Part shown: positions 18,758-42,075 of the stretch, piece by piece | Layout of the letters: each line of letters begins with the position of its first letter | How positions within the stretch are numbered: position 1 is the first letter of the stretch | NCBI RefSeq assembly: GCF_001652265.1 | Contig: NZ_LWBS01000424.1 | Span: forward strand, 1-47,696 | DNA length: 47,696 bases | From: Rhizobium leguminosarum | GTDB taxonomy: Bacteria; Pseudomonadota; Alphaproteobacteria; Rhizobiales; Rhizobiaceae | Direction: 5' to 3' | Translations under genes and position numbers: made by a program | The notes under the pieces: generated by a model | What the model was told of the DNA's origin: nothing | Seen by the model: only the letters and a program-made list of their open reading frames with translations | Databases searched by the model: none

Positions 18758-19450
18758 ATGAAAATCCTCATGGTTCTCACCTCGCACGACCAACTGGGCA
18801 ACACCGGCCGGAAGACCGGCTTCTGGCTCGAAGAGTTCGCCGCCCCCTATTATGCCTTCCTCGAGGCCGGCGCCGACATCACCGTCGCATCGCCGAGGGG
18901 CGGACAGCCGCCGCTCGACCCGAAGAGCGACGAACCGGACTTCCAGACCGACCAGACCCGCCGCTTTCATGCCGACCCGGATGCCCAGGCCGTGCTCGCC
19001 TCGAGCGTAAAGCTCGCTTCGGTCTCCCATGACGATTACGACGCCGTCTTTTATCCGGGCGGCCATGGCCCGCTGTGGGATCTGGCGGAAAACAAGAATT
19101 CGATCGCCCTCATCCAATCGCTTTATCAGGCCGGCAAGCCCGTCGCCTTTGTCTGCCACGCCCCGGGTGTGCTGCGCCACGTCAAGGCTTTGGACGGCAC
19201 GCCGCTGGTCCAGGGCAGACAAGTCACCGGCTTCAAGAATTCCGAGGAAGATGGCGTCGGTCTGACCCAGGTGGTGCCGTTCCTCGTCGAGGACATGTTG
19301 AAGGAGAATGGCGGCATCTACTCCAGCGGCGATGACTGGTCGTCCTATGCCGTCCAGGACGGCCTGCTGATCACCGGGCAGAACCCCGGTTCATCGGTGC
19401 AGACTGCCGGTATCCTGCTTTCCGCCCTGGCGGCGGCAAAGGCCGCCTGA
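18758..19450 (+). CDS. DJ-1/PfpI family protein (class I GATase-like)
   Basis: A 230-residue protein of the DJ-1/PfpI superfamily, closest in layout to the Hsp31/glyoxalase III-like group. It has the Glu of FWLEEFAAPYY (about residue 25), the strand DAVFYPGGHGPLWDL and the nucleophile elbow FVCHAPG with Cys133-His134. A late segment reads GLLITGQNPGSS. Members act on glyoxals or are stress chaperones. It is divergent from the LysR gene and presumably under its control. Confidence 0.9.
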   Translation: MKILMVLTSHDQLGNTGRKTGFWLEEFAAPYYAFLEAGADITVASPRGGQPPLDPKSDEPDFQTDQTRRFHADPDAQAVLASSVKLASVSHDDYDAVFYPGGHGPLWDLAENKNSIALIQSLYQAGKPVAFVCHAPGVLRHVKALDGTPLVQGRQVTGFKNSEEDGVGLTQVVPFLVEDMLKENGGIYSSGDDWSSYAVQDGLLITGQNPGSSVQTAGILLSALAAAKAA

Positions 19451-19500
19451 TCAACATGTCTGGTGGTGAAGCCCGAGGGTGCCGGTGCTTCCGCGGCGAT

Positions 19501-19571
19501 TCGAAAAAAGCCCCGCCGAGGCGGGGCAAGTTCATGGAACGCACAGGAGGAACACCCGTGCTTTCCTACCG
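19501..19571 (-). ncRNA. Candidate small RNA with anti-Shine-Dalgarno loop
   Basis: On the minus strand a possible short RNA ends in a strong intrinsic terminator: stem GCCCCGCC/GGCGGGGC (19527-19510) followed by TTTTTT. Upstream lie a hairpin GTTC-CAT-GAAC and an imperfect one GCAC...GTGC whose loop holds TTCCTCC, complementary to ribosome binding sites. Alphaproteobacterial small RNAs with CCUCC loops are known (the alpha-r14/NfeR1 type). The 5' end and promoter are not identified. Confidence 0.4.
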
Positions 19572-19574
19572 ATC

Positions 19575-19609
19575 TAACGAAAAAGGGACCGGCCAGGTTC
19601 CCGGTGCCC
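19575..19609 (-). terminator. Minus-strand intrinsic terminator
   Basis: The minus strand reads GGGCACCGG, a loop, CCGGTCCC and then TTTTT: a hairpin of seven pairs with two small internal irregularities (19609-19585). No minus-strand gene feeds it, so it may end another short RNA transcribed from about 19660. Confidence 0.45.
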
Positions 19610-19644
19610 TCCATAAGATCTTCCGCTAGCTAGTCGCACCACTC

Positions 19645-19920
19645 GATGCTCGCCGCAGATCAAAAATGAGCCCCGCCGAAACGAGGCAGAGGCAATTGGG
19701 AAAGGATGGATCGCACAGGGCGAAAGAAGAGATGGCGGACGGCCCCCGCATGGGGCCACCTGTGCGATCCTTTTGCCTAACAGCAGATAGTCGGAAAAAG
19801 TTGCTGCGCGGTTCCGTACCGTTGGGTGGATAGATCTCTAATATGTTCGGTTAGCGGAGCTTAACCGAGCCAGAAAAAGAAAACCCCGCAAGAGCGGGAT
19901 CAGGAAGAGGGGTGGTTTTT
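19645..19920 (-). repeat. Duplicated small-RNA block, copy 1
   Basis: This block, read on the minus strand from 19920 to 19645, matches 41688-41950 on the plus strand along its whole length. Shared pieces in order are CCTGATCC, GCGGGGTTTT, CGGAA, GGATCG.ACAGGTGGCCCCA, GTCCGCCATC, CCTTTCC, CGGGGCTC, TTTTTGATC and GCGGCGAGCA. The spacing from the first terminator to the second hairpin is about 100 bases in both copies. The variable positions lie mostly in loops. Confidence 0.8.
19662..19770 (-). ncRNA. Structured small RNA, copy 1 (covarying stem)
   Basis: A minus-strand RNA. GGATCGCACAGG (19770-19759) pairs over 12 bp with CCTGTGCGATCC (19719-19708). The enclosed part holds a GGCCCC/GGGGCC hairpin and the unpaired GTCCGCCATC. 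A linker with CCTTTCC leads to a terminator stem GCCTCG/CGGGGC and a TTTTT tract. The partner at 41830-41932 has GGATCGTACAGG/CCTGTACGATCC: one C-G pair became T-A on both arms. No open frame fits. The 5' end may lie further upstream, since similarity continues there. Confidence 0.7.
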
Positions 19921-19945
19921 AGGAACAACGCGTCGTGGCGTTGGA
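19874..19945 (-). ncRNA. Short terminator RNA upstream of the structured RNA, copy 1
   Basis: The minus strand gives a hairpin CAACGC-CACGAC-GCGTTG (19943-19926), an open C/U-rich stretch (CCACCCCTCTTCCTGAT) and an intrinsic terminator CCCGC-TCTT-GCGGG (19898-19885) with a T-rich tail to 19874. The last 45 bases match 41690-41731 on the plus strand. The open pyrimidine stretch is a plausible mRNA-pairing seed. Confidence 0.55.
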
Positions 19946-19950
19946 TTGAC

Positions 19951-20465
19951 TACTTCCGCATAACCTCAGAGTCTTTGCAATAAATATTACTTTATAGGAA
20001 TTCTTCGTCCACAGATTTGATATTTCAACTACAGGCTACATTGTTCGATTTCGCACTAAAATAGAAATTTACTTCAACTTTGAGTCTTATTTTGTATCAT
20101 TGGGGCGGGCCGCTCAGCGATCACTTGCTATACCCCAAGCATTGCGTCTCCTGTACGTTGGGCGGCCCCTCTGGATCTGACGATCAGCCGCACCAATCGT
20201 TCTGCTGCTTTGAGCTCCACTTCCTGGCGAATCCTTTCCGAAGCAACGTCTTTGCTGCACTTCGCAGGGTCGCCAGAAGCGGAGTGGCAGCCGGTTGGTT
20301 GAATGGGTTTCAAGGCGACTTCAAAACGTCCCGAAATTCCGCATCCGGGAGGTCACTTGCACATATTCGCTCGCCGGCGGAGCGCAGGCAAAAAGGTCAT
20401 TGGAGTGGAGATGTCGCCCGCTGGATAGAAGCCGGCGCTCGCGAAGGCGCGAAAATCGGGCAAGA
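19951..20465. other. AT-rich intergenic region, no gene seen
   Basis: 19970-20100 is clearly AT-rich compared with its surroundings and could hold the promoter of the minus-strand RNAs. The rest has open frames on both strands that read like chance sequence. A minus-strand stretch at 20140-20260 (KCSKDVASERIRQEVELKAAERLV) looks protein-like, but I cannot assign it. Confidence 0.4.
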
Positions 20466-41455: not shown

Positions 41456-41689
41456 TGGCCAATCCCCCCCATCTCCGCCAAGCACAGTTTCCATCCGACA
41501 TATATGAACTACAAGTCATCTCTTGTAATTAGCTACAACTCGCTTTGCCGGAAAAGCGAAGTCGCACGATAGTTTGGTAGTTTTCAGCAGATATCTGGGA
41601 AATGTTAGTTCATAGGTTATTGTTTTATTGAAAAATCATGATTTATGTTCGATATGGTTTTTGCATCGCAATTAATTCGCCAGCTCGGA

Positions 41690-41731
41690 AAACATCCCCT
41701 TTCCTGATCCGCGCTCCAGCGGGGTTTTTCT
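41690..41731 (+). ncRNA. Short terminator RNA, copy 2 (3' part)
   Basis: The plus strand reads ACATCCCCTTTCCTGATCCG, a stem CCGC-GCTCCA-GCGG and GGTTTTTCTTC. It matches the last 45 bases of the minus-strand RNA at 19874-19945. The 5' hairpin of that copy is not conserved. The stem sequence differs but still pairs. Confidence 0.5.
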
Positions 41732-41829
41732 TCTCTGAACTCAGCAACCGTTGCGCAAGTACAGATTAATCCAAGCATTGGTGCGGAAGCGCACCGGAAC
41801 CTTTTCGACCAATCGTTGTTTGGCCATAA

Positions 41830-41932
41830 GGATCGTACAGGTGGCCCCAATCCCGGGGCCGTCCGCCATCCCTTCCTTCCTGTACGATCCGTCCTTTCCA
41901 GATCGCCCCGTCCCGGCGGGGCTCCTTTTTTT
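41830..41932 (+). ncRNA. Structured small RNA, copy 2
   Basis: The 12-bp stem GGATCGTACAGG/CCTGTACGATCC (41830-41841 with 41879-41890) encloses hairpin GGCCCC/GGGGCC (41843-41860) and the unpaired GTCCGCCATC. Then come CCTTTCC and an intrinsic terminator, GCCCCG/CGGGGC (41905-41922) with a seven-base T tract to 41932. Just upstream, at about 41789-41804, GGTGCG-GAAG-CGCACC forms another hairpin. Compared with the copy at 19662-19770 the long stem has a compensated pair. Confidence 0.7.
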
Positions 41933-41965
41933 GATCCGCGGCGAGCAAAGCGCAACCAGCAGGAG

Positions 41966-42075
41966 CCGTCATCGACGACTATTATCTCCAAGTTCTGATA
42001 GGTCTGGCGCCCGGCAGATCGAAGTGTACGTTCAATAGCGGGAAGCATTGAAGGCGGGAATGACCACGGTCCGGA
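41966..42075 (-). pseudogene. Remnant of a family 2 glycosyltransferase
   Basis: The minus strand encodes RTVVIPAFNASRY and, after a one-base shift, IERTLRSAGRQTYQNLEIIV with VDDGS. This is the classic N-terminus of GT2 enzymes (nucleotide-binding strand, ETLRS helix, QTYxNLEIIVVDDGS). After 35 residues the sequence changes to the small-RNA block, so the rest of the gene is lost. The 41456-42116 gap otherwise holds only that block. Confidence 0.75.

Follow-up and report, generated by a model that had tools for sequence, protein, structure and literature searches.

Published accounts of the alphaproteobacterial general stress response include either a single RNA arm, represented by GsrN or ReC64, or a handful of RNAs with RpoE2 motifs in S. 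meliloti. ReC64 of Rhizobium etli is a sigma-EcfG-dependent ncRNA of 88 nt, encoded beside phyR-tcrY; sigma-EcfG controls it directly, and its 5' end has been mapped by RACE. Among 14 ncRNAs that changed in the R. etli mutants, ReC64 was the only downregulated one with the sigma-EcfG1 motif, given for this species as GGAAC-N16-CGTT (PMC3892343). ReC64 is also upregulated under salt shock, in a report whose promoter matrices assign SigA and RpoH (PMC4167512). GsrN-like RNAs of the Rhizobiaceae were described by Tien 2018 by the same layout that we discuss below, the exposed strand being called C-rich in the cited text and G-rich in the legend (PMC5869019). For S. meliloti, five RNAs are tabled with RpoE2 motifs, namely SmelC601, SmelB008, SmelB126, SmelA001, and SmelA018 (PMC7143759 Table 1), of which SmelB126 has four copies.

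We analysed a stretch of 47,696 nucleotides of Rhizobium leguminosarum DNA (hereafter, the window), which contains two related blocks, block A on the minus strand at 19645-19920 and block B on the plus strand at 41688-41950. Their homology at these positions, claimed in a preliminary description of the same DNA, was recovered in a search of the own genome with 73% identity (E 2.1e-31), the mean column identity being 78% when the flanks are included, and the same kind of search identified a third long hairpin-RNA copy on contig C57. Both blocks are intergenic. The layout of two RNAs per block, in which a C-rich terminator RNA (here named module 1) is followed by a hairpin RNA with its own terminator, is likewise as first described. 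Around block A there are in fact three minus-strand units in a row between 19949 and 19502, in the order module 1, long hairpin RNA, and short hairpin RNA, and around block B two units on the plus strand at 41658-41930, the C-rich terminator RNA and then a long hairpin RNA.

Module 1 of block A (19872-19949, minus strand) consists of a small 5' hairpin, AAAAACCACCCCTCTTCCTGATCC, and a terminator, and its counterpart in block B lies at 41658-41736 on the plus strand; they score 85.6 and 83.4 bits with R2, a model of module 1 made from 13 aligned copies that include both, and the edge at 19949 is the extent of the model and not a mapped start. The long hairpin RNAs, copy A at 19662-19772 (minus strand) and copy B at 41828-41930 (plus strand), score 100.9 and 110.5 bits with R1, a covariance model built from nine hairpin-RNA copies, again including these two, which covers the RNA only, without the promoter. 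They are composed of a 12-bp 5'-terminal stem, an inner hairpin, a C/U-rich strand, a linker with CCTTTCC, and a terminator. In the short hairpin RNA (19502-19568, minus strand; R1 39.7 bits, outside the model set) a stem with a UGUUCCU loop is followed by a terminator, and the inner hairpin is absent. This short RNA, the sigma-EcfG-like promoters presented below, and the likeness in layout to ReC64 and GsrN were all absent from the preliminary description.

The blocks do not appear to encode a protein, in agreement with the earlier statement that no reading frame is shared. In block A the longest stop-free stretch per frame is 36-68 of 92 codons and no frame is open throughout, and in block B it is 34-87 of 87 codons, with one minus-strand frame fully open as part of a 143-codon ORF at 41617-42048. 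Among 32 long-type relatives, 87 of 300 gap runs are 3 or 6 long and the other 213 break the frame; a shared coding frame is thus unlikely, since the gap runs are mostly not multiples of three. The preliminary description also knew of no named RNA family with this layout, and Rfam 15 indeed gave no match at the gathering threshold in the window. The best scores below threshold in the region 19400-20050 were 19.3 of 50 bits and 19.2 of 41 bits, and such rejected matches (suhB, SorY, a betaproteobacterial RNA, and others) are mostly over the short RNA and its terminator.

The hairpin RNAs are preceded by a sequence resembling the R. etli sigma-EcfG motif. In the window, GGAAC-N16-TGTT (41796-41820, plus strand) and GGAAC-N17-CGTT (19576-19601, minus strand) lie directly upstream of the block B long RNA and of the short RNA, respectively, and an off-consensus GCAAC-N17-TGTT (19779-19804, minus strand) precedes the block A long RNA. 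Among 92 distinct R1 matches, GGAAC-N16/17-NGTT precedes the stem in 74 (in the CGTT form in 44), distributed over 36 of the 50 matches of at least 95 nt and 38 of the 42 shorter ones, and in 63 of these 74 the distance from the end of the GTT to the first G of the stem is exactly 9 nt. Random 63-nt segments drawn from these loci contain the motif in 0.96% of cases (CGTT form, 0.42%), and shuffled upstream stretches in 0.17%. The 74 sites contain 69 different spacers, and over the unselected 92 rows conservation peaks at -34 to -30 and at -12 to -10 from the stem. The motif is absent in 18 of the 92 matches, including that in L010, which scores 105 bits and has a shortened spacer; four of the 18 differ by one base in GGAAC, among them the block A long RNA and its counterpart in G086, both with GCAAC, and with a -35 damaged in this way the block A long RNA may be poorly expressed. 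Taken together, the promoter motif, its fixed distance, and the layout make the hairpin RNAs look like sigma-EcfG small RNAs. A perfect GGAAC-N16-CGTT is also found on the minus strand at 152-176 of the window, ahead of a reading frame near the left edge that opens with the signal-peptide-like MRTILIAIGALTALAGSAFA, likely a sigma-EcfG protein gene.

No GGAAC site is found at module 1, whose copies largely retain a TTGMAA box placed 17 nt upstream of a weak -10. R2 finds module 1 at 41 places in 26 of the 148 genomes of the genus. At 30 places with module 1, at least one EcfG-like site is present within 800 nt downstream on the same strand in 20 and none in 10, and in 18 of the 30 a hairpin stem stands, as judged by eye, at the usual distance behind such a site. 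This tandem link is partly built in, because 12 of the 30 places are model copies from loci that had been fetched by R1; the other 18 include 9 with an EcfG-like site and 7 with promoter plus stem, and arithmetic from the background rate predicts about 0.2 sites per place by chance, or 3-4 of 18. Module 1 and the hairpin RNAs are thus clearly linked in the two blocks of the window and in their kin, and moderately so elsewhere. In some genomes the stems behind module 1 are wholly different, GAGACCGCGC in G009 and G073 and GGAACGCAATGG in G087, with promoter and layout kept, and the idea that module 1 pairs with the GGATC stem was dropped, because other subtypes adjoin module 1 without that stem. 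Further upstream of module 1 in block A there is a conserved intergenic element of 65 bp (20104-20168, minus strand), clear in 10 of 12 aligned loci, which was not seen at block B and has neither an Rfam match nor an unusual fold. Its DNA matches occur in 3 of 41 genomes, at two places in the own genome (one partial), four in G007, and one in G009.

The predicted folds are more stable than those of shuffled sequences, with z of -4.4 for long copy A, -5.9 for long copy B, -4.4 for the copy on contig C57, and -4.4 for the short RNA (19500-19570), none of 200 shuffles being as good in any of these cases. Module 1 also folds well in block A (19868-19945; z -3.7, 1 of 200 shuffles as good), and the block B module on its own (41660-41735) folds no better than shuffles (z 0.4). 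Both copies contain the 12-bp stem and the unpaired GTCCGCCATC and CCTTTCC in the form first described. The compensatory change between them, from C-G to U-A on both sides of the stem, is likewise present; three copies carry it, that of block B and the corresponding ones of G084 and G090, and G011 has a G-U form. This change is weak proof of the fold, however. In an alignment of all matches fitted to the model, which leans towards structure because of that fitting, 17 of 24 pairs change on both sides and none of 500 shuffles reaches that number, whereas in an unfitted MAFFT alignment of 32 long-type copies only 3 of 24 pairs do so, equalled by 133 of 500 shuffles. The covariation is thus thin evidence; in the same unfitted alignment, 92.5% of cells pair, against 34-51% with slid partners.

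The sequence presented by this fold is unevenly conserved. GTCCGCCATC, which had been proposed as a binding site on account of its identity in the two copies, is variable in the family, being replaced by GTACGCCAACC, GTCCGCTTCCC, or GTCCGCTCTTCC in other copies, and the proposal stands for its first six bases, GTCCGC, with a mean column identity of 0.94, and not for the remainder of the C/U strand, with 0.53. The stem itself, with 0.93-0.96, is better kept than most of that strand, as would be expected if the rigid stem were the functional part and the hairpin RNAs were sponges or mimics binding another RNA or a protein, such as Hfq, an RsmA-like protein, or the module 1 RNA. Module 1 and the hairpin RNAs, besides standing often in tandem, have CCUUUCC-like and GAUCC stretches in common, which also fits such a role. 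However, the wholly different stems that adjoin module 1 in G009 (GAGACCGCGC) and G087 (GGAACGCAATGG) do not allow a direct pairing of stem and module 1, and we regard sponges or mimics as an improbable explanation. Module 1 has in addition a C-rich strand, ACCCC-TTCCTGATCC, which is related to the strand of the hairpin RNAs.

The covariance-model search that had been suggested as a check was performed with R1, and found many relatives, with matches in 53 of 148 genomes of the genus Rhizobium and a maximum of five per genome at E 0.001. A model-free count of promoter plus GGATCGC gave 89 of the 148 genomes, with two matches for the reversed control, and this is an upper bound for the RNAs, since some of these sites recur nearly identical across many genomes and may lie in conserved genes. 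A scan of named genomes for the stem pattern found 13 stretches, 11 of them in Rhizobium (R. leguminosarum, R. ruizarguesonis, R. laguerreae, R. anhuiense, R. sophorae, and Rhizobium sp.), and the matches in a Streptomyces and in a Tannerellaceae bin were taken for chance. In a family sample of 199 genomes, six had an R1 match, three of them Rhizobium, and nothing convincing was found outside the genus; the matches in L098-L100 look unrelated on inspection by eye, and one of them is a tRNA followed by a terminator. The hairpin RNAs occur in several subtypes, often in tandem and with several copies per genome. In G062, G065, G073, G091, and G121 a further promoter-plus-hairpin subtype (GTTAACTCACCGGATCGC...) was observed, at most about 100 nt away from a match of the short RNA type. 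No description of this multicopy hairpin-RNA family was found among the literature matches listed, which come from open-licence papers without their supplements.

Part of the family is borne on plasmids. Plasmid records contain 43 matches to block B and 62 to block A plus the short RNA, all from Rhizobium, and among the plasmid matches listed (40 + 30) an annotated gene lies at one, a hypothetical protein, in a gene table known to be incomplete; some of the genus matches are on contigs of 4-5 Mb and are thus chromosomal. The best 12 of 170 matches of the window to plasmid records cover about 10% of it each. The plasmid matches, the presence of more than one copy in a genome, the inverted orientation of the two in the window, and the hairpins would all suit a small mobile or repeated element, of which the blocks would be parts and the hairpins the ends, with no genes involved. 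We find this very improbable, because the copies are diverged and of several subtypes and lengths, the nearest counterparts share their flanks (A and G086 over 3 kb, B and G084 as well as B and G090 over 1.25 kb), the promoter distance is fixed, most copies have a terminator, and even the richest genome has five matches (E 0.001). That the hairpin RNAs are cis elements, leaders or attenuators of the adjoining genes, is suggested by the intrinsic terminator that ends most copies and is hardly to be believed in view of the unrelated neighbours in six plasmid loci (elongation factor G, Kup, SDR, ligD, sterol desaturase, and hypothetical proteins) and of the tandem units, each with its own promoter and terminator.

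In our view, the blocks are likely to be cassettes of small RNAs that act in trans within the general stress response of the Alphaproteobacteria, and the hairpin RNAs probably form a multicopy, so far unlisted group led by sigma-EcfG in Rhizobium. We infer from the DNA that these RNAs are transcribed in dependence on sigma-EcfG and that they have targets on which they act by base-pairing. Under stress, sigma-EcfG would be freed from NepR and transcription would start from GGAAC-N16/17-NGTT, with the RNA beginning at the GGATCG stem or 1-2 nt before it. The 5' end would then be locked in the 12-bp stem, presenting the C/U-rich single strand, and a terminator belonging to the RNA itself would mark its end. 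Once exposed, CCCUUCCUU, CCUUUCC, or UGUUCCU could pair with G-rich translation starts of mRNAs and in this way alter how these are translated or how stable they are, a mode of action that has been proposed for Caulobacter GsrN. By this analogy, antisense action on G-rich translation starts is most likely the best reading of the function; a 16S tail pattern had no match in the draft genome. Module 1, having no EcfG site and a terminator of its own, would be controlled independently, and the cassette would join this C-rich RNA, with its different control, to at least one RNA induced by stress. A more far-reaching proposal, which we consider doubtful, is that Rhizobium replicons diversify stress-RNA cassettes, composed of the upstream element, module 1 under another promoter, and between one and three sigma-EcfG hairpin RNAs. 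Such a cassette would work as a two-RNA switch: with sigma-EcfG active, the stress RNAs would either assume control of the module 1 targets or counteract it.

If the cassettes are what we propose, Rhizobium seems to have stress RNAs in greater number than has been reported, with several predicted sigma-EcfG-led RNAs outside the core locus, partly plasmid-borne and in tandem, in which the loops vary and the layout is constant. Given their location outside the core and partly on plasmids, a retuning of the core stress response by accessory replicons can be tested for, and the changing loops over a constant layout provide a natural variant series for finding what such RNAs bind.

The closest comparison is with ReC64, for which the own genome provides a reference. 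Contig C272 carries adjacent genes for PhyR, an HWE kinase, NepR, and an ECF sigma factor, and in the gap behind the kinase gene GGAAC-N16-CGTT is followed by an RNA that folds in a like layout, with a 5'-terminal stem of 11 bp, an inner hairpin, a C-rich strand, and further hairpins (z -3.3, 1 of 200 shuffles as good). We take this locus as the probable ReC64 counterpart because of its place and promoter. The window RNAs have in common with ReC64 the promoter motif, the genus, and, as judged on this ReC64-like locus, the layout of 5'-terminal stem, inner hairpin, and C-rich strand; the 5'-terminal stem with a small hairpin and an exposed C-rich strand is present in the folds of A, B, the C57 copy, and the ReC64-like RNA alike. 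ReC64 is encoded at the core stress locus, whereas the window RNAs lie elsewhere, are multicopy, and often stand in tandem behind module 1; in the own genome the hairpin-RNA copies are on contigs C424 and C57, and thus not adjacent to the phyR-kinase-nepR-ecfG genes on C272. Over 18 kb at the ReC64-like locus the best R1 score is 13.1 bits, located elsewhere, and a match of 9.9 bits touches only the 3' end of the RNA.

For S. meliloti, in a neighbouring genus, the presence of several stress-sigma RNAs in one genome has already been documented, and SmelB126 resembles the window RNAs in being multicopy and in a similar promoter distance, its listed 5' end lying 8 nt after the CGTT of a GGAAC-N16-CGTT site. 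R1 matched no listed RNA in the four S. meliloti RNA regions searched (SmelC601 left out), and a 22.5-bit match in L150 of this species was rejected, being a GC-rich inverted repeat. SmelB008 (L148; S. meliloti pSymB 65071-65147) begins with GUCGCUUCUGUCCCCCAGCGAC and in one fold shows a 5'-terminal stem and a C-rich loop, the best fold of a slightly different stretch being another. MmgR/suhB (RF00519) is similar to the short RNA in its C/U-rich loop and terminator, but the short RNA scores 19.2 bits with that family, against a threshold of 41.

The likeness to GsrN of Caulobacter, an RNA known for its processing and katG pairing, is one of layout, and relatives of the window RNAs were found only in Rhizobium. 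With the ReC64-like locus the window RNAs have no recognisable sequence in common, and it is in their manner of working, as far as promoter and layout indicate, that they probably resemble ReC64 and GsrN.
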